From Neckera pumila (Eukaryota; Streptophyta; Bryopsida; Hypnales; Neckeraceae), in NCBI GenBank assembly GCA_963969595.1, contig OZ018408.1, positions 49,539,022-49,603,021 on the forward strand: 64,000 bases of DNA, in the 5' to 3' direction. Below are positions 21,429 to 52,919 of this stretch, piece by piece. Both the position numbers and the translations under genes were made by a program. The notes beneath the pieces were generated by a model, which was given only the letters and a program-made list of their open reading frames with translations, did not search any database and was not told the DNA's origin. Each line of letters begins with the position of its first letter. Position 1 is the stretch's first letter.

Positions 21429-21453
21429 AACATCATATTCATTAGTTTGGGAG
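21429..21453 (+). repeat. Terminal inverted repeat, left (giant element)
   Basis: AACATCATA then TCATTA and TTTGGGAG. It matches the inverse of 52895-52919 with two mismatches. Confidence 0.8.
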
Positions 21454-21853
21454 TTTTCCAAGGAAACGGGAGGCTTGGAAACTACTTTAAAGTTTGAAAT
21501 TCAAAGAATTCTATATTTATAATTGCCTTAAAGCATTGCAATCAGAAAGAAGCTACATATTTAAATGCAAAATAAGCAATGCAATGACACACAAAGCACA
21601 CAATCAATAGCACAATTTTCCAACACCATGTAGTATTTACAAATGACATTACAATTTATTGAAATGAATTGAAGAATGTACATGCATTTCAAATATAATT
21701 GTACAATCACTATGAAATGTGACTTCCCACAAATAAATGAATGTATAAGCTGTTCCAATCCTAATAGTAAAGTACATTGTCTTTGGAGTGAGAATGTGTT
21801 GGAGATATCACCACTATTACAAGCCGATTGCTAATGAAGAGTCAACTTCAATG

Positions 21854-22137
21854 TTTGAAGAATGAAGTAAATAGTAATCTTTCAGCGACAATTAATTCCA
21901 CAATGAATAGGGACCGAGAAATCGCAGCAAGAGAGAGACTTGTGGAAACAAGGTATTCCACTCTCCTTGAAAAGTACTCTTATATACCGCAGTGTGTAAA
22001 CAACAATCTATAAGGGTACTTGCCAAGGAGTTTGGAATACCTTGTTTCTACAAGTCTCTCTTGCTGCAATTTCTCGATCTCTATTCGCTGTGGAATTAGT
22101 TGTCGCTAAAAGATTACTATTTACTTCATTCTTCAAA
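21854..22137. repeat. Long hairpin: about 130-bp inverted repeat with 25-bp loop
   Basis: 21854-21984 and 22010-22137 are inverted copies with scattered mismatches. Shared blocks include TTTGAAGAATGAAGTAAA and ACAAGGTATTCCA. Both arms keep a reading frame for a charged peptide containing NRDREIAARE, which looks like the coiled-coil tail of a protein. So this looks like an inverted duplication of an exon. A transcript would fold into a long double-stranded stem. 21454-21850 shows nothing else. Confidence 0.75.
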
Positions 22138-22249
22138 TACAAGCCATAAACTTTGTAATAATGGTGATGTCTCAAACATAGTCTTTAAATCACTCATTAA
22201 TATTTGAGTAACTAACCAAAATTTTATACCACTCTAATGAAGAGAATAA

Positions 22250-22536
22250 AATGTCCTCTATAGTCTTCATCTATGTACTTTGAAGACGACCTACTCTTCA
22301 ACAACTCCATTGCCTTCAATATATCCGGCCCTAGACTATAACTAGTACTACTACCAGATCTTATTTGTGCAATCTCTTGTTGTTGTTTTCTTCAAGACCT
22401 CAAATCCCAAGTGACCCACGAACGTGGAAGCCAGAGTAATTGGAAAATGCAATGCACGCTTGGATTTTGGCCTAGACATAAGCACGGATACTACAAATAA
22501 CGCCATTCCTAAGAGAGCACAATAATACAGGCTCAC
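22250..22536 (-). pseudogene. Diverged duplicate of the exon at 22568-22807
   Basis: 22284-22470 repeats 22585-22740 in the same orientation (CTCCATTGCCTTCA, then CGACTAT, then TTCTTCAAG and CCCACG). Read on the minus strand it gives GPDILKAMELLKSRSSS, against GPKIMKAMEMLKSRSHS in the other copy. It is probably a duplicated last exon of the hypothetical gene to its right. Confidence 0.45.
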
Positions 22537-22567
22537 TATATTTGTAGGGAAAGTCGTAATCTACACA

Positions 22568-23669: not shown

Positions 23670-24939
23670 TCATCGTAAAGAAAATTGGAGACCCTCCAAT
23701 GCCCTGGCAAAGTCATTGTACTTGACCATGTCAAGTTCATTCATAAGGTGGACGCCTCCAAGAGCATTGTCTCTACAAAAAGAATTCAATTCCCATGGCC
23801 TCTCTACGTGCAGATTCTTAAACCACGGGAGAAACTCATTTATGAGGAATCCATCTGTTGCTCCGAGACCCTCAAACGACCACGGATCCAAGAGCACCAC
23901 ATTCATAGGGTCGTTCACGAAGTGCATCTCCGGCTTGACGTCCACAACAATTGTGGTCTTTTTGATGAACATGGAATCAATCAAATTGTGCAATTTTTCT
24001 AATGGCTTTATGTAGAGGACTTTGTCCGACCCTTTTATCTTGTAGTCCTCTAGCCTTCCGTTCCTCCCTCTGCGTTTCAAAATGTTGCATTGTTCTTGGC
24101 CAAGAATGTAACACGGGGATTCTATTCCGTGAAATAGAAACTTGCAAACGAGTTCGGCATAGGATCTCTTCATGGAGCTCCAGATGTGGACGTATGCAAT
24201 GGAGGACAACTCTCGCAAAAAGCTCCTGACATGGGGCCGACAAGTGACCCTCTTAATTTCCAAGGTCTTGTGCTCTACATCAGGGACTACCTCACCGGGA
24301 TCGCATAACCTCCCTTCCTTCAGGTGGTACCTCACAACGTCACACACGCATAGAAGTCCATTTAGATCTAGGATGACGTTGAGCCATTTCTTTGTCAGCC
24401 TAGAAGTGAATGGAGGAAGGTTGTGGCATTCCGCCTCATGGGATCTCTCACTGCTACCCTGCTCATGACGAAAAGAGAAAAATTGCAAATTAAAAGGATG
24501 CACTTCCGACTACAAAATGGGTACTCCACCCGTGCTTTCAAGACAATGAACCACATCCACTAAGGGGAGAAAGCAAAATCAAGAGTGCCAGGTAGAAGAC
24601 CACAGCAAGGACACTCAAACACACACATCACTATGTACATACCGCGTCTTGGACCATGGCAACTAGAGATGCTGTAGTTGTCTCGACCCCGGTTTCCGAC
24701 CGGGGCATTTCTAACTGAAAAGGAGGATTGTGTGGACTGTCCTTCAATAACCCGACGTCTCCACCATCAATAGCATGCTCCTCGACATTCTTTTCCTCAG
24801 GAGATAACGGAGGAATCTCCAGCACCGGATCACCACTAATAGCAATAGACACGTCGAGCACACATGCAAGGGGAATCTCCGGATCCACAGCAGCATTTTG
24901 AGAATTGGATGCCATAGGGAGAGCAACAATTTCAGACAT
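23670..24939 (-). CDS. FCP1/NIF-like HAD-superfamily protein with DLNG motif (two exons)
   Basis: Exon 1 is 24939-24643 (ATG at 24939, 99 codons, Glu/Pro-rich and acidic, donor GCG|GTATGT). Exon 2 is 24458-23670, after acceptor GAGCAG, phase 0 to phase 0. Exon 2 starts a NIF/FCP1-like fold: KKWLNVILDLNGLLC near 24365, RPHVRSFLREL, VHIWSSM, and a C-terminal part with VLLDPWSFEG and a conserved-looking NEFLPWFKNL. True FCP1 phosphatases have DxDxT; here it is DLNGL, as in many plant HAD/NIF-like proteins, so phosphatase activity is doubtful. The reading frame is intact. Total about 361 aa. It lies downstream of the gene at 25191-29441, on the same strand. Confidence 0.7.
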
Positions 24940-25114
24940 CAACGAGCCTGTGGCTGCGACATATCAAGCACAGAAATGATGTGTGAGAAAAAATCATATA
25001 TATTACAGTTTCTCGCTGGGAGATGGAATGTTACATTATATATAGCGCACTAGGAAAGTCTAGCCTATTAGCCTACTCCTGCAATCTGAAATGCCTACGA
25101 ACGTGGAAAGGGAA

Positions 25115-25135
25115 TTCAACTCGAATTGAGTTGAA
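25115..25135. repeat. Palindromic motif, copy 1
   Basis: TTCAACTCG then TTGAGTTGAA. It lies 56 bp beyond the stop of the unknown 3-exon gene, between it and the FCP1-like gene. Confidence 0.75.
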
Positions 25136-26405
25136 GAGGAGGCTGAGAGAGTCACAGGGAAGAACCTAGAGGAATCTCAGTCACAGGCCCCTATGACTGC
25201 TCGGCCTCTAATCCCCGTTTGGCGACATCCGGCGGGACGGGGTCGGTGTTGGTGTCCACAACAACATCCTCCACATCCTCCTCATCCTGCGCTGGAACAT
25301 CCTCTACTTCCTCTAAACCTTGCTCGACAACAACTTCATGGAGCTGATTTGTGCCAGTCTCCGGGGTAGCGCAATCTTGTTCCTCGACCTGCAGAACTGG
25401 ATCCTTGTCTTGTGATCCCTCGGTCCCAGCTCGTAGAGCATCGCCAGACGCTGGGGCAGCATCATTAGTTGCCGCATCCTGCCAAACTGTATCCACCTCC
25501 ATACTATCGGGACGCCGGTCGGATTCGACTTGGTTCGGATTAGAACTTGGCAACGTCTGGGCCAGCAAGTTCTGGGATGTCGACGGCACTCTAGTGAGGA
25601 TCTCCGACCCTGTGCGAGCTTGCCTGGCACTATCGACTGACCCCTAGGGATGATTCGCAATCGCCAGTTGAGGAGTTCCTATAGCTGGATCCAGGGACAT
25701 CAACGGTCTCGCACTGAACATTGTGCTCATGGCCATTGCTGCCACCTTTGATACAATTTCGGGAATACTCTGCATGATCTCCTTGATCATGTTCTTGTTC
25801 TCCCGACGCGCCCACTTGTTTTCCTTCCTTTGCGCCTCACGGTCCTCCTTACGAGCCCTAGCCTCATTCTCATTATTCTTCTGAATGAAGTCCATAATCC
25901 ACTCCTGCAAGAGTGGAGTGGCCGGCGCTGGTAAGTTGGGCTTCCTCTTCGGTGGCACATGCGGACGGGATTCCAGAGTGATATTATGTCTAGCAGATGA
26001 GTCGGATGATCCTCGCATGTCACTACCCTCAGGCACATGCGTCGATTTGCCAACTGCTCCCGGTGTCAACTCCAATACATCATCAGCGTCCGCACCGATG
26101 TTCACAGGAACAAAACTCTCAGACCCCCCAGGAATCTTGATGCAGTTGTCATTGGCTGGTTCCTTCCTCCTCCCGAACAAAGACGGCCCCTTAGCCTCTG
26201 AGGTGGACACACCTTTCCCCTTACTTCCGTCATCTTCGTGCTCTTTGACAAAGGACCCCGACTCAAGGAAATCATCCTTGTCCATACTCTCCGACTCCAA
26301 GCACAAGTTGAGGAAGTCTTCCTTCTTCTTGCTCTCACCAACAAAGAAGTGGTCCAACGACAGCATCTGCATGACAAGACCAAAAGAGCAGTTAGGAAAG
26401 CATGA

Positions 26406-26492
26406 TCAACTCGAACCGAGTTAAAGAAGAATCCATGGCCGCTAGAGATCTAGAGGACGTGCAAACAGGGAGTCAACTCGACCCGAGTTAAA
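26406..26492. repeat. Palindromic motif, two copies in intron 2
   Basis: Copies at 26406-26425 and 26472-26492, both of the form CAACTCG-nnn-CGAGTTAAAG, inside the 181-bp second intron of the unknown gene. Confidence 0.8.
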
Positions 26493-27934
26493 GAGGAGGG
26501 ATTCAGACATCTAAACTATCAGCATCCATGATTGAAGTCAAATTCACCCAAGCAGCAGATATCATCTTTCCTCTTGCAAAATAGGAGACCACCACGTCCC
26601 TCGACGACACAAACAATTGTAGGACGCTCAAATAAAACTCCATGCGGAGCTCCGTGTCATGTATCCAATACTCCACCTCCACATTCTGCCGCTTTATATT
26701 GTAATGCGATTTTGGTGCCACAGCAAATGTTTTAGGAATCTGGCGGGTCTTCATGGCTGCCCCGTTCTTCACCAGAAACAACAATTGGACTGGATCTTTG
26801 GCTTTGGAGCTCCTCTCGGGGACGTTCCCAATGCGCTCGAATGCGGATGGCAGATAATACGCATAGCCAACTGAATACGACTTGCCGAAATCAGATGTCC
26901 TGATGAAACTTTGCAAGTCGACCTCAACATCCTTCTCCACAGCAATCCACAGCCAGACCTCCGGGTTCGTGAGCTCCTCCTCGACATCCTCCTCCAGGAC
27001 GATCATGAAATTGTCGTAGTACGAAGCATTGGTGTCCTTGTTTATAACTCCAGGGATATTCCTGAAGTCGATGACCGCCAGCTTTACCCTGGATTGCGAG
27101 GACTCATCCCATACAGCAACGTCCCACTCTCCGAGCTCATCATTGTCCATATCATAGGGCCTGAAGAACGCCTTAGCTTTAGGCTTCACAAATTTGCCCT
27201 TGCTCGCCAAGAAGACTGTGAAGAACTCTTTTGCTGTAACTGACAATTCCTCCAGCGTCTTCTTTTTATTCGACGGCATCTTCACCTGAGAGAAGAAGTG
27301 TTCCCCTGGACTTATGAGCAACATGTTCTTCATGGCCTTGTTTACGTTGTAATCCCGCTTGAAGGCCTTCCATGCCTTCTTCCTCGGATTTCCCTCGTTG
27401 TCAAAGAGCTTCAGCTTTGGATCCAGGTGATGCAGTTGTATCTTTACAGCAGCCTTCCTCTTTACCCTCTCAAGCCAGTCCTTTGCGGAGTAGTAGTCAG
27501 GGAGGACAGACTTTGGTGCCCTCATGACAACTTTCGGATGTCCTGTAGTCCGCTGAGGAGATCTGTGAAGGATATGCAGCGCGAGCCTCCTCAAATCGTC
27601 TTGTGTGCAGTTCCCAATGCACTTGAAGAACTCATGAGTCATCACGCCATCCTTTGCCAAGTCCCAGCCTTTGCAAAACCTGAACTTCATGAGCAAATCT
27701 GGATCGATAAGCTCTCCCTGAGCTTGGCTTGAGATGACCTCCGCCCATAGGTCATAGACATCCTGCTGAGCTGTAATTAGCTTGATTTCATTGTGGATGT
27801 CTAGCTCCCTCTGGTTCTTCTTGCTCAGGTACCCCTGATTCTTCTTAATGTCAATCATGGCAAACCTCAGCTTGATTGCGTTCTTGAATTCCTGCACATC
27901 CAGGTCCAGCATACACGTCCTGTCAGCGACGGAA

Positions 27935-28012
27935 CTTAACTCAAGACGAGTTAAATTAATTGGAATGAACTGACCTCAATAGAATTACAAGTTAACTCGA
28001 GACAAGTTAAAG
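27935..28012. repeat. Palindromic motif, two copies in intron 1
   Basis: Copies at 27935-27956 (TTAACTCAAG, CGAGTTAAAT) and 27990-28012 (TTAACTCGAG, CAAGTTAAAG) inside the 134-bp first intron of the unknown gene. The two copies make up about a third of the intron. Confidence 0.8.
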
Positions 28013-29468
28013 CTAGCGGACTTACAGCAAAGAGCCTCTTTTTGTTGCCGTCAGCCCTTGACTTCTTTGCCGGTGTTACGGCCTTCTCCAAAGCTGTGGG
28101 CTCTCTTGGAGGCAGTGGGGATCCCATACTCGTCCAGACGAACCTGGATGCCAGGATGTTGGTGGACTAGGTTGGCATGAAGTTGTCAAAGTGGTTCACC
28201 TGATTGTAGTAGGCCGACACTTTCCTGATTAGGCTGTCGTCTTTGTGCCACACAACAAAGCACTCCCATTTCAGAAACTTAGCCTTCTTATCGTCGAGCA
28301 CCTTATTCATTTTCTGCATTCTCTTCGACGCTTCTATGCAGAACTTCTCGGCTTGAACTTCCTCAAACTTTTCAGGCTTCGTCATAACAAGCTGCGGATA
28401 TGCACAAAGCGTCATCTTTTTGTCAGGGTCACGCATGTTGATGAGGTAATTCAGGATCTTCTGAACACCTTGCTCTTCCAATACTTGGATGTTGAGTGTT
28501 TGTGGTGGTGTCTCTAGCTGATCAATTGAAATCTCAAACTTGTGCCCAATCTTTGATATGTACAGCTTTGTGCATGCCGACCAGTACTCTGCAAAGTGTT
28601 TGCATGCTTCCTCGTAGTCGATCTCCTTCACGATTCCGCCGAGGTCTTGCGGGATATCTACAAGCTCTGAGGCCATGCTACTCTCGGGCACCAGGAGGTT
28701 CTTCGAATTGGTCTTCTTTTCCTTCCCTTTTGGTGCAGGTGGTGGGGTCTTTGAAGGTTCCCCTCTGCCAAAGCGATACGTCTGCTTCATGCAAGTGTGG
28801 CTCCTACTCGTCTCCGGGGTCACCATGACGAGGGATCCCTGGCTTCTTCCTTGACTGCTGTAATCTTTGATCAAGGACAGGGGCTGCATCCTCAGGGACT
28901 TGTTCTTCAACTCCATCTTCATGTGGTCAAATCCCTTGATCAGGCCATTAACTCTTGAAGCTAGAGTGACGGATGTTAGAGGACTCCCATCTTTTGCTTT
29001 CCACCTCTTCTCCTTCATATGCTGCTCAATCTCTTTCTGCAGCCCCTGGTAGCTCGTCCCTTCTAGTGTCCTGTAGTAGTCGGAGACACTAAAGGTGATC
29101 TATCTGCTGTTTACCACATACAAGAAGATGTACTCCTCAATCTGATTTGGCTCCTGCATCCTACAGCAGACGAATATTAAACCGTTCAGCCCTGTGGTGA
29201 CCTCTTTTACAACCTCCGTAAGTGTGACCGGCAGGTTGTCCTTGACCTTTTTGTACTTCGTCATGAAGGACAGGTTCGAGTTCATAGGGACAAGAGCGAG
29301 TGTCTAGTGGTCGACTTCTTCAGGTTCCTTCCACTCCCAGCATTCCCCAAGCATGTCGGTCTCCCCGTACTTGTCTCTGTTCTTGTCAGGAATCTCAAAG
29401 CGCTTCAGGTAAACCTCTAGTCCCTTGGTCTGTGCCTCCATTTCTGCAAGTCCAGGACAAGAGCACAT

Positions 29469-30130
29469 GTTAACTTGAACCGAGTTAAAACCAGGAGATC
29501 TCCACTGACAGCACTTTATTGTCCTACTTATTATTCTTGGTAAATCCAGTTATACCAAACGCCTATTTATGACGCCCTCTGTTATCCGAGTGAAGATCGT
29601 CTATCCTAGACCATCGGGAGTTCTCTAACTTGGTGAACTCGTCACAGGGCTGACGTCTTTGGTTCTCTTTACACGATTCATATCGGAGGGCCTTTTAACT
29701 CGAGATGAGTTAAACCTTCTTACCGGATGTTGATGTTTGTGTATTCCTATGCCTTCTATGTCTTTGGTTAATAATTTAGCAGTCTTGTCTCTTGTCGAAT
29801 TAGCTTTAGCTGCTGAACCTTCTTGATTGTAGGGTCTGGGAAGTGATTTTTAACTCGAGCCGAGTTAAAGCTGTTGGTTTTTTCCGCAGCTTCGGTTTTT
29901 TTTCTATGTTCGTATGTCTTTGGTGTTGGTGTGCCGCTCTTGTTTGAGATGAAACTTCCATTTCTTGAAGCCTCTTATCTCGTCTTGAGTTAAATTTTTG
30001 TAACTCGCTACCTTAATTATGGTATCTATCGAGTTAAACTTCCGTCGAGTTAAATACGCGTCGACTGAAACCTACATTTTTGGGGTTATTACAGACATTT
30101 CTACATTTAACTCGACGGAAGTTTAACTTG
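29469..30130. repeat. Cluster of palindromic motifs upstream of the unknown gene
   Basis: Copies at 29469-29490, 29693-29715, 29848-29870 and 29974-29994. There is also an inverted pair of half-site doublets at 30031-30054 and 30105-30129, separated by 50 bp, which would itself form a hairpin. All lie upstream of the ATG at 29441, where a promoter and 5' untranslated region are expected. Confidence 0.8.
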
Positions 30131-31060
30131 TATGTAGCAATGGATATAGAAAACTGCAAAATTTGAATACCAGAACTGGAAATCAATTCAAAATATACCT
30201 AACGCAAGCAATAAATGCAAATCCTAGTGACAAGACTAATGCAATCAGCAAAAACTCAAGAAACCAGAAACAAAATGCAAGAATTCAACTACGAAACCTA
30301 AACCAAAACCAGAAGACTGTTGAATCCAATTGAGCACCCAGACCTCAAACATCCAATTTTGAGAAAACCACTTCCACAACTAGGTCGCCCAGCAAAATCA
30401 AAACTCTAAGCTGCAACAAAAACCACTGCACCACAATGCATGTATGTGGGAACCTTACGGAAGCAGCACGTCCACAAGCACAAGCACAAGCAATTACGTT
30501 CAGTGCAGCAATCCACAAGCACAAGCAATTACGTTCAGTGCAGCAATCCACAAGCACAAGCAATTACATTCAGTGCACGAAGTCGCCTCTACAGAATGAA
30601 AACAAACAAGAACTCTTGTCCAGCACGTACCAGCCAAGCTCCACCAAAACCCGCAGTCCCATATACAATGACGCAAGAGCTCCACCAAAAACCCCAGCAA
30701 GAGCTCCCGCCTACACAAAGAGGCAAGACAGACACCACGCCAAAGTCGCCCAGCTCCACCTCCACGCCTTGGCGACACACCACAAAGCGCGCCCAGGTCA
30801 CCCAGAAGGAGGTTGACAAGTAGAAATCTGGAACCCCAGAAATCAAAGTCAGCGCAAGTTGCAGCAGAAATGAAGGAAGCTGACGCAAAAACACGCAAAA
30901 ACTGGGAAAAGCACGAAATCACGAAAGGAATGAAGTTGCACAAGAGTTCCTAAGAATGGCAGATCAGGGCCAGGGTTTCCAGACAACAGCACCGCGCCGC
31001 CCATTGCGAACCCTAAATCGTGGCCCTTTGACCGTGGCCCATTCACCGTGGCCTTATGTC
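30131..31060 (-). other. Promoter/5'-leader-like sequence with a 35-bp tandem repeat
   Basis: Three copies of a 35-bp unit lie at about 30478-30580 (CAAGCACAAGCAATTACGTT in each). To the right, the minus strand reads TTTAGGGTTCGCAATGGGC, like a plant translation start. It opens 50 codons from about 31004 (MGGAVLLSGNPGPDLPFL) ending at 30849. I cannot connect it to a downstream exon. It may be a 5' exon of the unknown gene. The overlapping 126-147-codon frames here are repeat translations. Confidence 0.3.
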
Positions 31061-32110
31061 ACTTTAACACCTAAAGTTCCATGACTGTGTTTTCACCAAG
31101 AACCCTCAAAAAGTGTCATTTTTAGTACAAACACCAAATTTTTGGAAAAAAACTTACAATTACATGTGTCAGCAAAATTCATTAAGACCATTTTTTTGGC
31201 CCTGCACAAACTCACTTATCAATGAAAAAATGTCCCAAATGATGGTGCTTGTTTGGATTCTTTTTTCCTTGATAAAAAGGCTACATGCCCAAAAAATTTC
31301 ACTTCATTTGGAATTGTAAAACACATAGGAAAAAAATAGAAAGTGCATAGCAGTAAATAAGGATTCAAAATACAAAATTGTCAAGAATTTAATTATGACA
31401 TTGAAAAATTCTAATCCTACAATTGCAATGGTGTAATAAATAATCTACATCCTTTGATTTTATTTTTTGCAACGAATATTGAAAAATGAATAAGATGAAG
31501 GACTTCAAAATTTAATTTGGAGTCAAGAATCCAGAACTGCCCACAAACTAAAAATCTTCATAACTTTTGACTCATAGATCAAAATGGGTGGATTCCAAGC
31601 TTTTTACGTACATATAACTCTAGAAAACCAATTTGAAGTTGGTGTTTTCAAAAAAAGTGAATTCTTTTTATTTGCCCAGACTGCCTAGTTAGAAAAAATA
31701 GTAATATATTAGGTCATAACTGTTGACTCACATTTCCAAATGTGATGAAATTCAGTGCGTACAAAAGATAGTAATAGATTAGGCCATATACGTACATGTG
31801 ACAATAGATCATTTACATCTTATGCTGAAATTTAAATAAAATGTCCATGCAAGGATTATTTTTCAGTTGCACTTATTTAATGACATTTGGAAATGTGAGT
31901 CAAAAGTTATGGCCTAATATGTGGGTTTTTTTGGTAACTGGGCAGATAGAGGAAATTAAAAAGCATACCTTTTTTCAGAAATAAAACTTTGAAATTTGTT
32001 TTCCGGACTTATATACACGTAAAAAACTTTGAACAATTCCATTCTGATCAATGAGTCAAAAGTTATGAAGGTTTAGGAATGGTTTTACCAAAGACATTTG
32101 GAAATTCACG
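31061..32110. mobile_element. AT-rich fold-back element
   Basis: It begins TTAACACCTAAAG, like the other AT-rich elements. 31545-31756 and 31870-32085 are long inverted copies of each other (shared TTCATAACTTTTGACTCAT, TTTTTACGT and GACTCACATTTCCAAATG, in opposite order) with a loop of about 115 bp. It could be one fold-back element or two copies head to head. 32110-33576 is AT-rich with no supported gene. Confidence 0.55.
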
Positions 32111-41000: not shown

Positions 41001-42399
41001 GTTACGTGCGCCTAATTCGATTTTTGTTTGTTTTTATTTTTACATAAGCCATAGTTTAGCACTTACCATCTTTGCAATGTCCGATTAATTTCAACCTACA
41101 CAACAATCCTTGAACATCGTTTACTTAGTTAAAAGACAGTTAATTTTGGGGAGTAACTGATTAAGCTTAATGTGGATTCATATGAATCACGAAGAGATTA
41201 ATAGTGAGGACGGTAGAACAATCGAAGAACTAAGAATGTTTCGGGTGAGCTTTAGTTTCAAGAAGTAGGGATCCATGTATTAACTTACACGACCCTTGAA
41301 CCATGAGTATTGCATTTATGAACTATGATCAAATCCTTAATTGAATGTTGTTTGGACAAGGTCAATGCATGTGTATTGTGTTTTTTTTTCCTACTTCTTT
41401 GTGTAGCTCTAACATAGAGTGCTCCAAGATGCAAGCATCAGTAGCTAACTGATCATTCTTGCTTTGGCACATGAATGTCAGTAAACATTTCTAAAAGTTG
41501 TTCAGCCCTACTTTGACATCCTAACTTGCAACAAAGAAAATATTAATAAGAAAGGGGAAACAACGATTGTCTAGTACGGCTCTTGGGATTTTTGCAACAT
41601 TAAAAATGGCTAAGTTGTGTCGGGTAGGTATATCCCAGCTTGTAAGCTGTAGTAAGTTTGGTCAATCACCCACAGGCACAAGCATCTCCATTGTGAGGCA
41701 AAAAATGAAGCCAACTATGTGGCCTTCCATGAAAGAAGAGATCACCAACATGAATGATGCTCTTGTACAAATTCACCGTTCAAGAAGCATCTATTATGTG
41801 AAGTCATTCCTAAAGACAAGAAGATAGAAAGGAGAGACCGGCAAAAAATATGTTGAATTGGTACTCTATTGACCTACTGCACTATTCCTATCAAATTTCA
41901 TTAATGTTAATCTTGTTTCCTTATAGCCTAATTAAGTGGTCTTATAAAGTACTTGCGTGGGGTTCATTTCGTTTCCTACAGGCTTTGCACAATTTGTATT
42001 AGAAAATTGCAACAAGGTTGAAGAATGGGTTATTCTTTGAAGTCAATCATCAAGTGGAAAATCCTGAAGGCCATGGCTTGTGAGACTCAGAGTTACCAAA
42101 ACAGCAATTTCTGAATTTTTGACTACAAACCCCGAGCTCTAATTGGGATCCGTAGGGGGAAAACGCAAGAGTTATACCCCTCGAAAAAATGCAGGAATTT
42201 TTTTTTTTCACATATTATTATTATTTTTAATTCTGATTTCATATTTGCAATCAAAGGCCCCAAATTAGCTAGGGGAGGTTTAGGGTTAATCCCTAGACAC
42301 AACTCAAAATAGGGGCAAGATTTTTTGTTTACCCCCACGAATTTATGCATTTTCACCTTGCAGGTCCCAGTTTGAATGCCAGATTTAACATTTTTTGCC

Positions 42400-43117
42400 T
42401 TACACCATTACCCTAAACTTTAAAATGTAGTGTATTACTTAACCTACTCTTTGAACAAATAAAATGTAAATGTGGTATAATGTTTTAGTCGTTGCATTCA
42501 GGAAAGGGCCAAGAAAAGGGTCTACAAGTTTGCGGGCAGTTATGGATTTTGTACACTAAAATAAACTTTGAAGTCCTTTATCTTACTCAATTTTCAATAA
42601 TTAAAAAAAAATAAAAATCCAAGGATGTAGATTATTTATTACAACATTGCCACCATTGGGATCAGCATTTTCCAGTTACATAATTAAATTCTTGACAATT
42701 TTGTATTTTGAATCATTTTCTACTACTATCTATTTACTATTTTTTTCCTATATGTTGTACAGTTTCAAATGAAGTGAAAATTTTCAAGCATGTAGCCAAC
42801 TTGTCTCGGAAAAAGAATCCAGGAAAGCACCATCATTTTGGAATTTTTGTAATCAAAAAGTGAGCTTGTGGAGTGCTGTTGCCCTGTTTTTTGCAGTTCC
42901 AGAAACATGGTTTTAGTAACTTTGAATGCTTATATCTTGCAATCCCGGCGGTGGAAATTCCTGAAATTTTTAGCATATGCTCTCAAGTCACCATACTACA
43001 AGATCCTACGGTTACATGTGCCAAAAATTTTATTTTTTCAAAATTGGATACTTGTACTCAAAATGATAGATTTTGAGCGTTTTCGGTGAGAACATAGTCA
43101 TGGAACTTTAGGGGTTA
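42400..43117. mobile_element. AT-rich MITE-like element
   Basis: It ends TGGAACTTTAGGGGTTA at 43117, the inverse of the family start. 42540-43100 matches 13620-14180 block by block (AATAAACTTTGAAGTCC, CAAGCATGTAG, TATATCTTGCAATCC). The left end is not defined. A shorter relative probably covers 43130-43560, ending AAACTTGAGGGGGTTC. Confidence 0.5.
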
Positions 43118-43611
43118 CATGAAACTTTTTTGCAAAAATGAGTAGCAATCTATGTGGTATAGTCAAGTTGCTATGTTTTTCTTTGCACTGCTTAATTCCA
43201 GATGAATCCAAAAATTTTTAAGCATGTACTAAACTTGTCGAGGAAAAAAAATTCCAGAGAAGCACCATGATTTTGGACATTCATTCATAGGAATGTGGGC
43301 ATTTGAAGTGTAGCACCCTTGTTTTCCAGAGGGCCAAATAAATGCTTTCATTGAATTTCAATGTTGGAAGTTGCAGTCCACGGCTCTACGCGGTGGAAAA
43401 TTCTGAAAATTTTACCACATGTTTTCAGTTCACCATAGTAGAAAACTTTTTGATACATGTGAGGGGAAAAAAAAACTCCCCAAAAATTGGGTACTTGTAC
43501 TTAGAATGACATGTGTTTTGTATTTCGGTGGAAACATATTCATCAAACTTGAGGGGGTTCAATGACTGGTCATCAATTTTTGTTTCCCAAGAGCTTTCAT
43601 GCCTTACCTTA

Positions 43612-43672
43612 AAGACCCCGACCCTGAACCCTACCCTAATCCTGAACCCTATACCCTAACCAAACCCTAAAC
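43612..43672. repeat. Degenerate telomere-like CCCTAAA tract
   Basis: Irregular ACCCTGAA, ACCCTAAT and ACCCTAAA units, about eight in 60 bp, like the plant telomere repeat (TTTAGGG) but imperfect. It lies just before element 3. Confidence 0.5.
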
Positions 43673-43684
43673 CTTTTTGCTATA

Positions 43685-43689
43685 CCTCA
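43685..43689. repeat. Target-site duplication CCTCA, left copy (element 3)
   Basis: CCTCA precedes TGTCGGAACCTG at 43690 and is repeated at 47587-47591. Confidence 0.75.
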
Positions 43690-46600
43690 TGTCGGAACCT
43701 GAAAATCCACTTTTACTAATTTAAAATATAAATGAAGGAATAATATTCTTCTTAGCAATAAATTTTTTCGATTTTAAGATAGTTATAGACCGTCTAATGT
43801 TTAGAACCAGAAACCGGAAGTGGACTGATCAGGAATTGATGTAAAGGCTAACCAAATGTACCAGAAACAAGGAACCGGAGTTCGAATTCGCCTAGACCGG
43901 ATCAGGAAAGGGGTAACAGGAATCGGCATCCAATAGTGACCTACTTAACCCTAGGGAACTACGGGAACGTTCTAATCATTAGTGAACGGAAATCCTAAAT
44001 GGGCAGGTTTAACGGGCAAAGCCTGGATTAGGGGAATCATTAAGAGCAGCTGGGATTGGCTCTCTTAAACCCCATCTGTCCAGAGACTGGTCATATACAT
44101 TTTCCTGCCCTGACTGAAAGTTGTAGCAACGTACACCATTATTGGTTTCCGGTCTGAGCATCAGTATTGGGTTTTGAGTTGACGGACTGCGGAAGAGAGT
44201 GCTTGAGGAACATTAAGTGCAAGAGAGAGGTCTGCTAGCATCCCAGCTTAGTGTTAGTGCTTGCACAATTGAAAGCGGGAGAGAGAGTCGTGAAGACCAC
44301 TCTTTTTCCGATTTCCGAAAGTAGACCGACCGCATTCTAACGGAAGGAGAGATGGCTGCAAGTCAGAGTGGGGGAACCACCATCTCGCTCTGGTGTGTGA
44401 CGCCAAGATTGCCCAAGGAGGAGCTGGAGCTGGCGGAGCTGAAGGAAGACCTGGAGCAGATGGGGTGCACTGGGTTCCTGATCCGACCATGGGACTTCAG
44501 AAGCGAAGCAATAGTGGCGGAATTGAGGTCTGGAGCGCCAACTCGCGCCGCGACCACAATCCGTGCAAAGCCCAAGCGATGGACGGCGGACATGTGGAGG
44601 AAGGTCTATCTATTCAACCAGGAAGGCGAAGGAAGTGCATCCCGGAAATACCAGTATACGGTGGGTAAGTTCCGAAACCTAATTAGTAAGAAAGACGGGT
44701 TCTCAGTCACCGATTGTATCAATCAGAGAGAAAAGCGGTTGTTATAGTATGTCTTGGCCATTCTCAACCCGGAAAGGCCAAGCCGAGTTTCTTTGACATT
44801 GGCCAACACAATATTTGGCGCATTGTCTAGAGACCGGAAAGTAGATTGGGAAGTGGTCATCTAGGACCAAGTACTGAAAATGGTGAATAATGTTGGGAAG
44901 GCCAAGCCCTCCGCCATCTGTCCATTCTTGATTCATCTGTATCATTCTGAGGGGGTGATGACAAAAGATGAAGAAGTAGAGTATGAGGCCGCTGTTGTCC
45001 TGGTAGAGTTTGAAGTTCCGGACTTAAATCTTGAGACAGGAAATGAGGAAGAGTCCTCAAATGAGGGAGATAATGAGAATGAGCAGAGCGAGTTTGAGGA
45101 CGATGAGGATGAGAGTGAGGATGATGATAAGGGTGAGGAAACGAGAGAAAAGGGTCAGGTAGAGAAAGAGCAAACCAAAGATACCAATCCGATCTGGAGA
45201 GACGAGCCGCTAGAGAGAGTCACCCGAGAATTGAACGACTTCAGGACCCGGTACGAGATAGAGCGAAGGGCGATGTAGACCATCTGCATCACAGTGGGCG
45301 CCGTCCACCCAGCTCAAGCCTTAACCCGGGTAATACGGCTTATCCGAGAGAAGGAGAAGAATGAAAACAAGGAAGAATTGGCAAAGCTTTCCGGCCAAGT
45401 GGCCACTCTTAAACAGGAGTTGCGCCAGAAAACAGAAGAGGTGGAGAAGGAGAAAACGTTCTCCAAGCAGACGCGAGACACCATTTCCCAAATCCAGAAA
45501 TTCATCACCCATCCGGGTGAAGTTGTCAACAAGACTAACTTGTTTGACCAACAAGTAATGGTGGAAGGACGACAGCTGCATCAGAAGCTCATACTGGCTA
45601 TGGTGACTTATCACAAGAAGATGGAGTCCACACTAGAGCAGCTGCGAGAAGTGATGCGCGAGGTAAACCCTCAAAGTGATCCTGCACCGAGATCGGAACC
45701 GGATCACGAACTAGTTCAGCAGCCAACAGCAGAGAACAAGGGTAAAGGTGAGACTCCTCACGAGCAACCAGATCTACTTGTACCAGAGGAGCACCAGGAA
45801 GCCAAGACAAGTCAGATGCAGGAACCTGAGGTGGAGATCACCAAAGTCACCAACCCGGATCCGGAGGATGATGAGTTGGAGATCACGACGGTGACGGGAC
45901 CGAATCCAGCAAAGGCACAGGGACTAGAACTGACAACCGGACGAGGAGGGTCCATTCCAGGGGAGAGTACTAAGGTGAAGCAGATGAGTGCCCTCTCACC
46001 CTCCAAGTCTTCTCCCAAGATTCCCGAAAGAAGGTGCAGTTTGGAGATGCAGGGAAGATGACGACCCTGATACAGTCCGTGGTGAAGACAGAGACTGGAG
46101 CTGGTCGCGGCACTTCATCCGGCTCACCGAGTAAGGGCCTAATCAGGAAACCGGCTGGAGGAGATGCAACACCTCAGAGCAAGGTAGCAAAGCCTACTCC
46201 TGTCCCGCATAAGAGAAAGGTTCCTGAGCCACAATTGGCCAAGAAGAAATTCACCAAGGTTTAGGAGGAGGAGGAAGAAGAAGAGGATTACGACTATGAT
46301 GAAGAGGAATCTGGTTTCGACCAGGATTTTGAACCTTATTTGGATCCCGATCAGGCCTTGGCAAAGACCCGAGCGACAAAGGCGAAGGCGGCCAGAGAGA
46401 AGGCCAAAGTCCGGTCCAAACAAACTACCAAACCGCAGACCGGAAAGAAGCCCTTGACCCGGAAGGAACCAGCAAAGGCGGGGTTTTCACCAGTGAAGAA
46501 GATTAGGAAGTAGGTGAAGGTTCTGATAGTGACTGTAGGGCTGCATGCCTAATTTTGACAAGTAGATGTGTAGGTATATTTTTAGTTTAGAAGGAGTTAG

Positions 46601-47586
46601 GACTCAAGTTGATTCCGGATTTTTAGGATCTAAGATCCACTTTTAGTGGAAACTTTTTGACTGTAGCTTAAGTTACCTAAATTTGACATGAAGTTAGGAA
46701 TGAAATGTGTCATTCCATTAGCTGTATTTAGCCTTATGCGCTTTTTGAGTTTGAGGTGTAGTTTAGTATTTAAAGGCGGATTTTAGGTTTGATCCGGGTA
46801 GCATTTTTCATACTTTGTATTCCCAATTTTCTGCAAATGCCGTTGGAGTTTTCCAATTTACAATTGTGAGCTGTACCTTTTAGCACTTGTCCGTGTTATC
46901 ATGAGAGCAGTGAGATCGTGCAGATTTGGGTAAGGAGGAAGTGAAACCCGGATACAGAAAGTATCCAGTCCCTGAAGAGATTGCGTGTTAGACAGGATAC
47001 AATAGGATTTCCTTGCGAGGATTAGAGCTGGCTTTTGTCAAGAAGTATTATAGCTCTCCCATTTTTTCCTGACGCCCCTTCTCTACCTAGGCCGTGGATT
47101 GTCCTGTAGTCTGTCATTGTAGTAATTGTTAGGAGAATCCAGACTTTCTTGCGTGACCTGCTAGCCTGGGTAGCCCATCCGGTCTAGTTGTGAGGACGGT
47201 CTCTTTCTCGTTGTTCTTGTCAAGGTTTTCTTTTCAAGTTTATATCGTGGATCTTCTGACACGTTAAAACTCGGAGGGTAGGAGTTAAGCTTCCTTCCGG
47301 AAGCCCAAAGTTGCAGATCCCTTTTGGTCCAGAGGTTAAACTCGAATTTATTACATATAGTTACATACTCTAGACTAGATATATAATCGAGAAAGGAGTT
47401 TCCGGTTCCGGATTACTGGAGCTGGATCCAGTCTAGACTAGTACTTGGGGTTGTTTTGGGATACCAATTCACTGCATTCCGGCCACTTAGTAGAATTACA
47501 CCGAGATCTCTGCGAAACGATACACGAGTCACTTTAGGGTTCATTAAGGCTTTAGAGAAGGATTTTGTACTTTCTGTGCTACGGCA
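43690..47586 (+). mobile_element. Element 3: 3,897-bp TGTNR-type element, second subfamily
   Basis: It starts TGTCGGAACCTGAAAAT and ends CTGTGCTACGGCA, flanked by CCTCA. The ORF and the 3' region are closer to element 0 than to elements 1 and 2. The 3' part has a TATTTAAAGGCGG box near 46770 and the same kind of pyrimidine-rich zones. No long terminal repeats are found. It lies inside the giant element. Confidence 0.75.
44352..46513 (+). pseudogene. Element 3 ORF: plant transposon-protein-like domain, acidic run, coiled coil and basic tail
   Basis: The ATG is at 44352. The order is as in the other copies: GCTGFLIRPWDFRSE, MWRKVYLF, SVTDCINQREKRLL, SRVSLTLANTIFGAL and FLIHLYH. A long acidic stretch follows (45040-45170), then a coiled coil (45340-45520, with KLSGQVATLKQELRQKTEE) and a Lys-rich tail ending KKIRK and TAG at 46511-46513. 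In-frame TAGs at 44745, 44863, 45276 and 46262, plus a frameshift near 46025, disable it. The domain order suggests a gag-like or DNA/RNA-binding role rather than an enzyme; that is inference. Confidence 0.65.
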
Positions 47587-47591
47587 CCTCA
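47587..47591. repeat. Target-site duplication CCTCA, right copy (element 3)
   Basis: CCTCA follows CTACGGCA and matches 43685-43689. Confidence 0.75.
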
Positions 47592-47799
47592 AAAACCTGA
47601 CCTGACTATGTACAGTCGTACAACACTTGGATTCCTTCCGTTACTTTTTATGTAGCCGCTGATGGATTTAACTTTTACTGACAATAGTTTCTGGGAAATG
47701 GGATCTTTTTAGTGCGCTTGAAAAGCTGTAAAGAATGACATATCAATTGTTCAGCCGAAACTGGAATTGGAAGATTCTACGTCGTCAGCATTGAATGCT

Positions 47800-48545
47800 T
47801 ACAGCTGCCAGCGGTAGTGAAAAGTGCCTATCTATTTTTATATGGCCTTGAAGACAATTGTTTGAAAATCTTGTGTACATTCCCTCGCCTACCTTCCCAC
47901 GTACCGTTCTCACTCTCACCGTCCCGCAGTTGTCCATCAATCCGTTTCTCTGCCGGCAATGGGGTTCCATCATCTCTTTCTCGTTGTCGCCGCCCTCATT
48001 CTTAGACCTCCTTTACTTCTCGCAATATGTCTCATTTCCGTGCTTTTAGAGCTCTTTCCATTTGATTTCTTGGGCTCTAGCTCATCTGCATTTTGATTTC
48101 GTAGGAGCCATTGCTGCAGTATCACTTCACGAATTCGGGGTCTGTTTTGTTCGCTGCTTTGGTTCACGAGATTCTGGGTATGCAGTAGTTCTTCTTGTAT
48201 TCTCAACCGGAGGTGTCCCTTTCTTGCATTATACATTTTATTCTTCACAGTGCATTCCTTGCGCCCGTGTTGAGATGGATCCTTCTTCCAATCTCTTCTG
48301 TGCATTTGCAGTATTCGATGTCACAAATCATGAAGTTATCATGTAGCTGGGTTGTAGGAATTTTATGATTTCTTCCTGCATTGCGATTGATGTTTGCGAT
48401 GTTTCAGATTGGTTCGGATTTTCTGTTGTTACTTGTGATGAACCCTTGCACCAGCGTCTACAGGCAATTGGGTTGCTTACGGTACCCTAAGAATGCAAGA
48501 CAGCCCGACATTGTCGCTGAAATTCCCGGGATTGAATCTGATGAA
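47800..48545 (+). promoter_or_regulatory. Possible promoter and 5' leader region
   Basis: Pyrimidine-rich DNA resembling a plant 5' untranslated region (CGTTCTCACTCTCACCGTCC). An ATG at 47959 opens a 30-codon hydrophobic, signal-peptide-like peptide (MGFHHLFLVVAALILRPPLL). No downstream exon could be joined. It is on the same strand as the transposase-like gene at 49293 and might be its first exon; the evidence is weak. Confidence 0.2.
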
Positions 48546-48582
48546 CTATAAAATATGACGCCCCGTAAAATGCAAGATGGAC

Positions 48583-49214
48583 ATTTAACTCGATTTGAGT
48601 TAACTAATAAGCCTAGCAATATCCACATCGTAACACAAGATTCAACTCGAACCGAGTTAAGTGGATTAAATTGGTTCAACATGACCCAAATTATATCTTC
48701 ACGTAATAACAACTATCTAAATATGGTCCATGTCTCACCAAAGTTAACTTGACACAAGTTAAATAGTCATGGTGTGACAGTTCTTTGGATGCATAATAGT
48801 TGTCGTTGTGTTTAACTCGAGCCAAGTTAAATACCTCCAGAATTTACCGGACTTGGCTAGCTTGTGTGACTGGATTAGTTGACATGTTGGACCATGTCAA
48901 CAAGTTCACTGGTGATGGATGTCACGTCCGTGGAATCAGATTCAGTCTACTTGTTACCAATTCTCTCTCCTGTCCAATTGATCTGATGTGTGCTGTTGAT
49001 TCAGGATTGAGGATATTTTATAGTATGTCCTATGTTCTGCCGCTGCTGTCTTTAACTCAACTCGAGTTAAATGAACTCTGTCGGACATGATCTGCCTCTG
49101 GATAATCTTCTCTGCTGTGTCCAGTATATAGAAGACTCGTACTCTTGTACACGGTGATTACAAAATGCTGCAGTAGCTTAGATTTAAGTAGTGGCTTAAC
49201 TCGCCTCGAGTCGA
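48583..49214. repeat. Cluster of palindromic motifs upstream of the transposase-like gene
   Basis: Copies at 48583-48605, 48642-48662, 48742-48764, 48810-48832, 49050-49072 and 49195-49214. All are variants of TTTAACTCG...CGAGTTAAA with a 2-3-bp centre. They end about 80 bp before the ATG at 49293. They mirror the cluster at 29469-30130, upstream of the divergent unknown gene. Confidence 0.8.
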
Positions 49215-49292: not shown

Positions 49293-52117
49293 ATGGATGC
49301 TATCCAGCGGCCTGTCGTGGATTATTCTTCGGATGAAGGTGAGGTGGAGAATACGCAGCTGGAGGACATCGTCGTACCTGACTGCGATGGTGTTTCGCGT
49401 CGACTTTGGAGTACAAAGATTGTTCTTCTATACAATGCCAATGGTCAGCCTGTGGCTGAGGGAATCTGTTACAGCGTGAATTCTGATCACGTTGTTGGTG
49501 GCAATGGTCCTCTAGGAGATTCACTTGTCGCAGTTCAAATTTTGAAGTCGCTACAAGTTGAGGATGTTTCTGAAGACTGGAAGTACTCACTTTGTGCATG
49601 GCCAATTACTCATGTCTTTCTGAATGGGGCATGTTTGAGCAATCACGAGGTTAGCGACGAGTACAATTGTCGCCAGGCTAGACTGTTGCAACCGTCATCG
49701 TCATCTGCGAGACCATATACGAGCGTCGTCAGGAATGCTCCACCTCCTCAAATTTGTGTGAAAGCCGACAATCTTCTCACTCAGGAATCTGTCAATTCCG
49801 TGTCGAGCAAGACGTGTTGTTCGAGCAATTGTGTCCAACCTTTTCCTAGAGAGAAGATTCGTGCCTTCCGTGAGCATATGTACCACAAGACGACCTTCAA
49901 ATTCCGTTACCACATGAAGTTGGACGTGCATCGGCAGGTCCACCGTGACAGTCAGGGTAAGAAAGTGGTCACTCTTGAAGGGATCGAGGTCTGTATGGCG
50001 GCATATTGCAGGTGTCTCGGAAACGACCTTCCATCGTTTTCAGGGATATGCTGCTAGAGGTGATCAAGCTCAATCACATGGAAATTTGGGCACGCAAAAA
50101 TCTCAGAAGCATTCGTTGCAGGCCGCTGCGACATTGAAGTGTTTGCTTGAGAAGTCGGCTGACCACATGCCGCATCGTACGCACACTCTTCCTTCTGGAA
50201 AGAAGATCATGTCCAAGGTTCTGCCGGCCACATTCACATGGAAGAATGTACTCCCTGACGTCAATGCAGCAAATGCTGTGTTTGGGCTAAAGGACGTCTC
50301 CACCTCAAGCATCAGCAAAATTAGGAAATTGAATTTCCCTAAATACTCCGTGAAGAAGCCCGGATAATTTCGCTCGTTGCGCGGACTCTGATAGATTTCA
50401 AGCTCAGAGAAGGACCGCCCACATTGGATTGCGACAGAAGTGGGACCATCTGCTGGACAAGTATAATACATGTGCTTGAGCTCATCAAGATAATTATTAT
50501 GCAAATCGGTACAGGTCAACTGCATACCCTCATGAATGCTTAACGATCATGCATGACAAAATGGATCATGCCAAAACGGCGTCTCCTGTCTTCTTCCACA
50601 AGAGCAAGCAACTTGATGGACTCACAAAGTTGCCGGTCTCAGTCACTGGAATGATTGCTCACGGGCATGGCGACGTGCGTTATGCACATTATGGTCTAGA
50701 TATCTTCCTGCACGACTCCAACTACACAATGGGTTCACTAGCTAAGCTCTTGCGAGACCTTGAACTCCCCCCAAAGTACTCCTCCAGGGAGTTGTTTGTT
50801 GGGTCAGGCTCTACTCCTCTATTTGAAGCGGTGCTGAAAGGAGCTAAAATGTGCAACTCATCACTTCGGCCACCGCCAAAAATCCCGATTAGAGCGGCTC
50901 CCCTTCCTCCAGTTCTCAATGTTCAAATGGACAATGCTATAGGAGACAACAAAAATCGACATGTATTTGCATTTTGGTCTCTCCTCATTGCAAAGAAGAT
51001 ATTCCGAGAAGTGTATGTCAGTTTCATGTTGGTCGGTCATACGCACGACGACATCGATGCTTTGTTTGGTAGATGGAGCATGCAATTGAAGAAAGAAAGC
51101 TTCCCCACCATCCCAACCTTCATGAAATCCTTCATGGATGTGGATTCTGTGCCTACCATTCCTCACTTGATCGAGGAGGTACTGGATTTCAAAGCCTTTA
51201 TAGAAGGCTCTCTTTTGGAAGGAGATGAAGTACTTGTTGGCCACACCAAAGCACAACAATACAAGTTCTATTTGAACTCAGCTGGTGTTCCAATCATGAA
51301 GTACAAGAGGTACTGCACGGATAGTAATTGGCTCCCAAAAGAAGGGGGGATCAAATTTTGGAAAGAAGACTCAAAAGGGTGGAGTCTATGGCCTCGTGGA
51401 GAGCCAGTGCCTATCGCCCACCTTCCAATGAAGGGTATGGATGACATTTCCAAGGGGATCTCTGGGTTCATCAAGTATTGGGAGGCATTATGCAATGAAG
51501 ACGGGAGTGGAGAGTATAGGAGATGCTTCAAGCATTTGGTGTTCTATTGGCGGGCAGTAAAAGCATGTTTGTTGGAGCCTATTGTACCATTTGAACTGCT
51601 GAAAGAGGGCTTCTGGCCTTCTATCCGATTGGAAGCAATCAAGGAGGACGAATTTGATGACAATGGCGAAGCTCGTGAGGAATTTGCTGAGGATGATGTC
51701 TTTGTGGGGCAACGTCATGATTGTCCCTTGCCATCTTTCCGAGTGGGTCGTAATGTTGAGAAAGATTTTTTTGTCGCCCTTCGACCTGCTGATCGTGATA
51801 TAAAACCCGTATGGATTGCCAGAGCTTTATTTGCCCTTTTCACAAACCTGGAGCATCCAAATTGTATCTTGATTCAGTACTTTAAGCCAATGGCACGAGG
51901 GAGAAATGTTCAAGAATTTTACAATGTTTGGGACTCTGTTAAGGGATTGCGTTGGAAAGTGGACGAGGCCCAAGAACCTGTTTGGCAGGACACAAATGCT
52001 CTCATCACCGCATGGAGGTCTAAGGTTAAGAAAGACACAGTGGAATGTGTCCTTCGAATCCCTGCAGCTCAAGTTGATGTCATCAACAAGAGTTTGTGTT
52101 TGTATGATTCCGATTAA
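49293..52117 (+). pseudogene. DUF7869-like, probably RNase H-fold transposase-related protein of the giant element
   Basis: An acceptor (TTTTTTGTGCGTAG) precedes the ATG at 49293. The N part has an acidic start, then CCSSNCVQPFPREKIRAFRE (about 49815-49880) and VSETTFHRFQ. The second frame (49945-50367) has a Lys/Pro-rich stretch. The third (50549-52117) has MDNAIGDNKNRHVFAFW (50930) and VGHTHDDIDALFGRWS (51030), hallmarks I associate with the DUF7869 domain. The acidic residues there could be catalytic. Frameshifts near 50010 and 50355 and a TGA near 50476 separate otherwise continuous homologous-looking sequence, so the copy is damaged. Stop TAA at 52115-52117. This is the best candidate for the mobility gene of the giant element; other roles are possible. 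Confidence 0.65.
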
Positions 52118-52560
52118 GCATGCACCGCATTTTTTAGAGATACTTTGTAGTATTTCAAGCTAAGTTTGGTAGCTAGTATTCTATGGTCCGTATGTTTTGG
52201 CATAAGTAGAGGCGATTTTATATGATTTTATATCATATGTTGTAGAGTAGGTGGTGTAGATTGGAGTAAGGTGATTGGATATTATAGAGTTGTTTTGGAA
52301 GTATTTCTATATTTTGTGTATAGTCATTTGCGTAGCAAGTGCACTTTTTTATATTATTTAATAAATTTTTCATTCAATCATACATGTATTATTGTGTATG
52401 TTGGCATCATTTCATTATCAAATTATGTAACTAAATTATGTCTTTTAAAAATACAGTACAAGTTATAAAAATTTGTTAGTGGCTAAGACCACTTGTCACG
52501 ATTTTGGATAGCGAGCCGATTGGTTGTTTTAACTTTCCTGCCTGTAAAGTTCACTCAGCA
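52118..52560. other. 3' flank of the transposase-like gene, no feature
   Basis: AT-rich DNA with no supported gene. It probably contains the 3' untranslated region of the gene ending at 52117. Confidence 0.4.
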
Positions 52561-52563
52561 ACA

Positions 52564-52675
52564 CCAAGTCATGTGAATCTCATAGCCGCTCATACGATTT
52601 CAATGGGAATCGAACTCGGACCACCTGGATGAGATAAATAGCCTCTTAAAACCAACCGTTCAGCTCATGACTTGG
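52564..52675 (-). mobile_element. tRNA-derived SINE-like sequence
   Basis: On the minus strand, GAGCTGAACGGTTGG resembles a pol III A box, and 45-50 bp later GGTCCGAGTTCGATTCCC is a near-perfect B box. The unit is bounded by CCAAGTCATG and CATGACTTGG, an inverted 10-mer that could close an acceptor-like stem. It is not a functional tRNA: the cloverleaf arms do not pair well. It lies near the right end of the giant element. Confidence 0.5.
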
Positions 52676-52894
52676 TATCCAAAGTCAACCATACAACGTA
52701 TTTATATGGAAATGACTATTGCCACTCTGATAAGTAATTAGCCTGGCACACACAAATTGCCTAAGACTTCCATTTTAATGGAAATTGTAGGTATAACCTA
52801 AAGAATTCAGTTCCTCTAAACTTTTTTTTATTTCCACTTAAGTTCAATTTTTGTGGCACAAAATAGGACATTGTTATTTTGGGAGGTCCCCTAT

Positions 52895-52919
52895 CTCCCA
52901 AAGTAATGAGTATGATGTT
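52895..52919 (-). repeat. Terminal inverted repeat, right (giant element)
   Basis: Reverse complement AACATCATA, then TCATTA and TTTGGGAG, matching 21429-21453 with two mismatches. Confidence 0.8.

Follow-up and report, generated by a model that had tools for sequence, protein, structure and literature searches.

A large DNA transposon in the moss Neckera pumila with a transposase-like DUF7869 gene, an FCP1-like partner gene and recurrent palindromes

The insert at 21429..52919 of the window, by which we mean the whole stretch of 64,000 nucleotides that was analysed, is a real DNA transposon. Its left 25-bp terminal inverted repeat (AACATCATATTCATTAGTTTGGGAG, 21429..21453, + strand) and the reverse complement of its right one (AACATCATACTCATTACTTTGGGAG; 52895..52919, − strand) are identical in 23 of 25 bases and in 24 of 30 over a longer stretch, and the two ends are divergent beyond. 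The target site duplication CTTC is found on both sides (21425..21428 and 52920..52923). A related site without interruption, the reverse complement of 36773-36830 (...CTAACTAACTACTTCGCCTTTCGCGCC...), agrees with both flanks of the element, and the join at the insertion point is visible from this paralogous sequence. The inverted ends and duplication of a 31.5-kb insert and the empty site fixing the insertion point, all proposed in the sequence-only reading, are thus borne out to the exact base.

A gene of about 940 codons with the domain PF25273 (DUF7869) lies near the right end (49293..52117, + strand), where a transposase-like gene had been noted. It can be aligned without introns; in the window copy its reading frame shifts twice, near 50000 and near 50364, and is broken by one stop (50477-50479). 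The core of the protein models as an integrase-like fold in the predicted structure. The accessory gene, which encodes a protein of about 1,550 amino acids, points away from the DUF7869 gene. It is decayed and spans several exons (23690..29441, − strand, ATG at 29441); relative P0122 and a tblastx comparison to L002 suggest a possible 3′ continuation of the coding part to about 22630. The first large coding exon (28026..29441, − strand, 472 codons) contains three in-frame stops and the second (26506..27918, − strand, 471 codons) is open, while a third coding stretch of low complexity with one stop and approximate boundaries (25190..26365, − strand) is marginally similar to relative P0121 (E 0.069). 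The FCP1/NIF phosphatase-like domain PF03031 follows at 23690..24509 (− strand; E 9.2e-13, above the cut-off). In place of the catalytic motif DxDx(T/V) of FCP1/SCP phosphatases this domain has DLNG, and DLNG(L/I)L occurs in all four sequences compared (window, P0121, P0122, L002).

Relatives of the accessory gene comprise 1551 amino acids in Physcomitrium patens and 1523 in Ceratodon purpureus. The coding regions on this strand had been read as a set of several genes. Their common strand is confirmed, but we reject several cargo genes because a single relative of about 1,550 amino acids covers all coding stretches in order, the third one marginally; they form one multi-exon gene with an FCP1-like domain. 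“Cargo” is not the best word for the accessory gene because it occurs also in Physcomitrium and Ceratodon. A pairing of a DUF7869 gene with an FCP1-domain partner was not found in the parts of the literature covered by our search.

The long stretch between both genes is free of large reading frames. Its central region (30126..48584), which is shared with sister copies and contains diverged inverted repeats (31065-31549 vs 42527-43117), is split by two nested insertions that become apparent in the alignment to a sister copy of 22.3 kb. Insertion 1 (33585..38889, + strand, 5,305 bp) has a repeat family in common with 4173-7804 and includes the paralogue of the target repeat in which the site is empty, and the coding part of insertion 2 (43690..47585, + strand, 3,896 bp) is distantly related to insertion 1. 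Both are absent here from all five full-type sister copies. The length of the window copy above about 22.3 kb is due to these insertions (5.3 + 3.9 kb), and the element without them is, as judged from the alignment, about 22 kb long. Of the proposed 31.5-kb DNA transposon the large transposon therefore remains, with a corrected size. A nested 12-kb element with terminal inverted repeats at 31064-43117 was considered and rejected, since comparison with the sister copies makes these repeats part of the main element.

Across the 339.5 Mb of the host genome, a degenerate pattern of the ends is matched exactly at 51 places (23 forward, 28 reverse); the reversed control contains none. Twenty-three of the 51 matches are located on one 12.3-Mb contig, which may be relevant to the accumulation of such elements on certain chromosomes. 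The matches form 12 neighbouring facing pairs including that of the window, of which 11 were examined; the twelfth is a 392-kb pair on contig C11. Nine of the 11, the window included, have an exact 4-bp duplication (CTTC, GAGA, AACA, ATTC, TGGT, TTAT, AGTT, GTAC, ATTT) at a spacing of 9.1 to 68 kb, and the bases past the four duplicated ones differ in the flanks compared. The pairs spaced 77 and 250 kb lack an exact 4-bp duplication; both ends of the 77-kb pair are of the left type, and it is therefore not one element. The 33 of 51 ends outside confirmed pairs are either single ends or have mates missed by the exact pattern. Both genes are present in the same order in all five full-type sister copies examined, a comparison that does not extend to the inside of copies C1b and C3b. 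A 9-kb relative is bounded at both ends by inverted repeats of about 0.8 kb.

The genome thus holds the further copies with facing ends, 4-bp duplications and shared genes that the sequence-only reading had suggested to look for, and the interpretation as a DNA transposon, which was to be abandoned if no other copy had the same ends and genes, survives. An assembly artefact is very unlikely. We regard a misassembly or chromosomal rearrangement as the source of the two junctions as practically negligible: no point in its support was found, and nine pairs with exact 4-bp duplications, all different in sequence, speak against it.

The palindrome TTAACTCGNNNCGAGTTAA occurs 17 times in the window compared to 0.23 expected occurrences, and every one of them falls in a non-coding portion of one of the two element genes. 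Eleven palindromes with 0-3 mismatches lie in the introns and the 5′ region of the accessory gene (25116..30125), and six similar ones shortly before the start of the transposase-like gene (48585..49214). Each element copy contains 13-17 of them, and far relatives possess an altered version in the corresponding introns. All counted sites are located outside exons, 17 of 17 in the window and 15 of 15 in the relatives, two look-alikes having been dropped from the latter count, one in L002 (6873) with an imperfect match and another in L001 at about 1295. The core CTCG-NNN-CGAG is kept, and the flanks are uniform within a group of elements and different between groups. This pattern makes the co-evolution of a regulator and its intronic sites directly testable. 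The palindrome may be the element's own control signal.

Taken together, the insert is very probably a decayed copy, extended by two later insertions to a length of 31.5 kb, of a moss family of cut-and-paste DNA transposons of about 22 kb; this explanation includes the following roles of genes and palindromes. The DUF7869 protein would be a DDD transposase that cuts the element at its ends and integrates it with a stagger of 4 bp. DUF7869, a domain of unknown function, would by this gain a concrete likely role as transposase of large elements with 4-bp duplications. The FCP1-domain protein could represent an accessory factor, and the palindromes putative dyad binding sites, either in the DNA or as hairpins in the introns. 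A protein encoded by the element might act via these palindromes and tune the transcription or splicing of both genes. More tentatively, a plant transposon equipped with an RNA polymerase II-type (FCP1-like) regulator of its own and with about 15 matching palindromes marking both genes, the palindrome evolving with the element, might control its own transcription or splicing as a self-contained regulatory circuit, possibly in a new or Sola-related superfamily.

The palindromes could instead act as RNA hairpins in the introns, that is as splicing or silencing signals and not as DNA sites. Their position outside exons would fit this, as would arms in L001/L002 of up to 16 pairs in one case and compensating differences at three outer pairs in the relatives (p 0.013-0.028, uncorrected). 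The window group gave no covariation signal (lowest p 0.257 over 16 pairs). As the inner eight bases per arm are constant within each group as sequence and not by pairing alone, we consider such a role conceivable but doubtful. A further question is whether the accessory gene was captured once from the host and carried along without a role in transposition. FCP1-type genes are ordinary host genes, and copy C11a keeps the transposase gene and the target duplication without the accessory gene. Such a passive passenger is nevertheless unlikely, given the identical gene order in the five full-type copies, the low dN/dS of the accessory gene in far relatives and the palindromes borne by both genes. 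In addition, one of 30 accessory-gene exons lies on a contig whose length, 109,202 bp, is the same as for the contig of a DUF7869 protein (rough chance 0.001).

Regarding the superfamily, we lean slightly towards an ordinary member of Sola, with DUF7869 as the Sola transposase and the novelty limited to the accessory gene and the palindromes. The passages on Sola in two publications describe a DDD transposase, 4-bp target site duplications, very variable ends, terminal inverted repeats of 11-1124 bp, a size of mostly 2-9 kb with some elements over 15 kb, and a Sola1 type from Physcomitrella (PMC10741241; PMC9033089). This is in agreement with the duplications in nine of 11 facing pairs, the short 25-bp inverted repeats, the variable ends, the moss host, and the range from elements of about 22 kb to the 9-kb relative with its inverted ends; a putative DDD-type transposase would be compatible with it. 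The FCP1-domain partner gene and the intronic palindromes, in contrast, are absent from these passages of the review (PMC10741241). The earlier view that the element cannot be assigned to a known superfamily is weakened by Sola, with its 4-bp duplications, DDD transposase, variable ends and moss member (PMC10741241), as a candidate. The proposed link is one of shared features, as the literature searched does not mention “DUF7869”. Alternatively, DUF7869 might define a new DDE superfamily with 4-bp duplications by coincidence. Its 26 family members are without a match to named transposase profiles at E 0.1, Pfam labels the domain as of unknown function, and we found no named family with ends like AACATCATA. 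However, its features coincide with those of Sola, the first reading frame in the window alone has a Transposase_23 match below the cut-off (20.3 vs 21 bits), and Pfam contains few Sola-type models; we judge a separate superfamily rather improbable.

Several other systems invite comparison. En/Spm (CACTA) is likewise a two-function DNA element of plants in which short binding sites (TNPA sites) recur many times, but its duplications are of 3 bp and not 4 bp, it has CACTA ends of the form CAC...GTG in place of AACATCATA, and its sites are subterminal instead of intronic. The TTAA duplication of piggyBac and Kolobok is not among the nine different duplications, and Mutator-like elements have target site duplications of 7-12 bp, often with long inverted repeats, compared to 4 bp here. 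Maverick/Polinton elements possess 6-bp duplications together with polymerase B, integrase and packaging genes; no such family was found among the element reading frames scanned against Pfam. Starship-type giant elements depend on a tyrosine recombinase captain, and a profile of this kind was likewise not found among the scanned frames, which leave out some small ones. KolobokP, as far as described in PMC9587614, is a DDD/E element that also carries a gene for a second, unusual enzyme, but with TTAA duplications (for Kolobok), animal hosts and a homing endonuclease as partner. IS3EU of rust fungi differs, in the part of the description considered (PMC12730594), by 6-bp duplications, TAYGG ends, the fungal host and an alpha-kinase instead of a phosphatase-like gene, and shares with the present element a transposase and a gene resembling a protein-modifying enzyme, placed in opposite orientations within one DNA transposon.

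The insert in the window starts at 21429 and closes at 52919, and its outer 25 bases form an inverted repeat with 23 of 25 bases identical between the left and the right end, while the sequences diverge further in. CTTC flanks the insert on either side. A relative of the target site, located inside the insert on the other strand at 36773-36830, has both flanks joined uninterrupted with CTTC occurring once only. The inverted 25-bp ends with a 4-bp duplication and the uninterrupted related site put forward in the sequence-only reading were both borne out. The target repeat (20305-21428 with 52920-53663) and its relative (36273-37934, in the first nested insertion) contain a 28-bp tandem array of AATCCGGAT-type units. 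A palindromic inverted repeat at 21854-22137, some 0.4 kb inside the left end, recurs in the copies C10, C3a, C5 and C11b.

We searched the host genome (339.5 Mb in 18 contigs; window at C1:49539022-49603021) with a degenerate end pattern and found 51 exact matches vs 0 for the reversed control. These include 12 neighboring facing pairs, the window counted in, 11 of which were examined for duplications. Exact 4-bp duplications (CTTC, GAGA, AACA, ATTC, TGGT, TTAT, AGTT, GTAC, ATTT) were present in nine of the 11, with an end-to-end spacing of 9.1 to 68 kb, and absent from two, spaced 77 and 250 kb. Leaving aside the window and a 9-kb copy, the seven other duplication-bearing pairs have a left end of type GGGAGTTTTCC opposite a right end of type GGGAGATA, the same arrangement that the window shows. 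Of the 51 matches, 33 fall outside confirmed pairs. The further copies with matching ends that had been anticipated are thus present, and an assembly artefact is very unlikely as the source of the insert. Contig C11 (12.3 Mb of the 339.5 Mb) holds 23 of the 51 matches, with about 1.9 expected, and is possibly a TE-rich or sex chromosome.

For comparison six sister copies were retrieved, five of the full type (C10, C3a, C5, C11b, C1a) and a sixth, C11a. Aligned to the window element, C3a (22,343 bp) falls into three separate blocks of approximately 93-95% identity, at element positions 1-12156, 17462-22261 and 26158-31491, so that two pieces are extra in the window copy, of 5,305 bp at 33585-38889 and of 3,896 bp at 43690-47585. 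At the two junctions the C3a blocks overlap by 8 and 6 bases, the pattern expected of insertion target duplications, and both pieces are missing at the corresponding places in all five full-type copies. The first piece is a member of a repeat family seen at 4173-7804, the second a distant relative of it with similar coding stretches; the ORFs of this family (all three locations) gave no Pfam family above cut-off. Similar pieces occur elsewhere within C5 and C1a.

The element size is supported by C11b (22,493 bp) and C10 (20,188 bp); identity of the other copies to the window over the blocks is about 80-96%, mostly above 86%. Gene order is identical in all five: end, accessory gene reading outward, central region, transposase gene reading outward, end. 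In C3a the central region contains diverged inverted repeats about 6 kb apart, and positions 9200-17200 have a GC content of 0.34, with stop-to-stop frames that do not exceed 158 codons. The element is a real, multi-copy, two-gene DNA transposon of roughly 22 kb. The proposal of a 31.5-kb transposon therefore stands as to its nature and not as to its size, since the two pieces are absent from the five full-type copies.

The leftward reading frames, taken in the sequence-only reading for a set of genes, are one gene. Two moss proteins, one of 1,551 aa from Physcomitrium patens and one of 1,523 aa from Ceratodon (KC19_VG143100), align to the window in matching order, both with PF03031 near the C terminus. 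The former aligns from the ATG at 29441 to about 23690, and the latter has an extra aligned piece reaching about 23041. The first large exon of the window gene has three in-frame stops. Instead of the DxDx(T/V) catalytic motif, the window gene, the two moss proteins and L002 all have DLNG(L/I)L, with Asn for the second Asp; of these four, the window gene is the one that has lost a DD farther along. Thirty proteins were matched in a profile search based on the second exon, two of them encoded on cyanobacterial MAG contigs 6.2 and 7.4 kb long (L001, CADCWO010000269.1; L002, CADCWO010000243.1), which probably represent moss-like transposon genes contaminating the bin. In these both large exons are open, with dN/dS of 0.136 and 0.120 at dS of 1.01 and 0.83, and the low ratios therefore indicate purifying selection on the accessory protein. 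Among the matches listed, the longest contig is 109,202 bp both for one of the 30 accessory-gene matches and for one DUF7869 match; with 30 and 114 distinct sizes compared, the rough chance of this coincidence is 0.001 for sizes of at least 10 kb.

Both genes are accompanied by a palindrome, TTAACTCGNNNCGAGTTAA, of which the window has 17 occurrences vs 0.23 expected when up to three mismatches are allowed (maximum of 2 in 100 shuffles). Eleven sites lie with the accessory gene (25116-30125) and six with the transposase gene (48585-49214); the gap between the groups is about 7.5 kb in C10 to 9.6 kb in C11b. None of the 17 falls inside an exon, exon limits being approximate, and the same window scan found none in the element flanks or nested insertions. 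Across the full-type copies 14 sites are traceable in six out of six and three in five, and the majority sequence is the perfect 21-mer at 4 sites, with 1-3 mismatches at 13. The sites deviate from the consensus 25 times in all, and 13 of these deviations are CG to TG/CA changes, which fall on 4 of 16 positions (p 0.003), an excess as in methylated, ageing DNA. L001 and L002 have 15 counted sites of a different make, ATTCAGCTCGANTCGAGCTGAAT and close variants, again with none inside exons; as in the window, they occupy the 5' intron and the three introns that follow it, with one more farther downstream in L002. A CTCG-NNN-CGAG core is common to both palindromes, and the flanks are uniform within each group and different between groups. 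We read the palindrome as a putative site co-evolving with an element-encoded binder. It may instead act as a hairpin in intron RNA, a less likely reading in favor of which arms reach 16 pairs in one case and three outer pairs have compensating differences (p 0.013-0.028, uncorrected, in relatives only).

A mechanism may be proposed that builds on what is established: the ends with their duplications, the existence of a family, the gene pair, the palindromes common to both genes, and the selection that has acted on the accessory protein of relatives. The DUF7869 protein (gene at 49293..52117) would cut at the 25-bp ends and insert with a stagger of 4 bp. The accessory, FCP1-domain protein could be a regulator, probably via binding or scaffolding because its catalytic motif is altered, and the palindromes might put both genes under one control.

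The 9-kb copy C11a (9,057 bp), flanked by the duplication GTAC, is more distantly related. Inverted repeats of about 0.8 kb form its two ends and are 68% similar to the right end of the window element. It carries the transposase gene and three palindrome matches, and the accessory gene has no match in it, which suggests that the transposase may suffice without the accessory gene. Its target (L023/L024) is palindromic, the flanks ggccccaaGTAC and GTACttggggcc being mirror images.

Outside the insert, ORFs at 58953-62476 with SDGCSGQFK and GHGKGEVDGAG motifs presumably represent a second transposase-like gene; they gave no Pfam family above cut-off. A 20-bp tandem array of about 16 copies lies at 60300-60819.

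The term "DUF7869" was not found in the literature searched. Sola elements combine a DDD transposase with 4-bp duplications; their ends vary greatly, with TIRs of 11-1124 bp, their size is mostly 2-9 kb, with some above 15 kb, and Physcomitrella is among their hosts (PMC10741241; PMC9033089). Compared with this description, the features testable in the window element agree or are compatible, a likeness by features. In layout the nearest parallel is IS3EU of rust fungi, where an alpha-kinase gene lies opposite to the transposase (PMC12730594). The element is probably Sola-like; its partner gene is unusual, and its repeated control-like site is striking.
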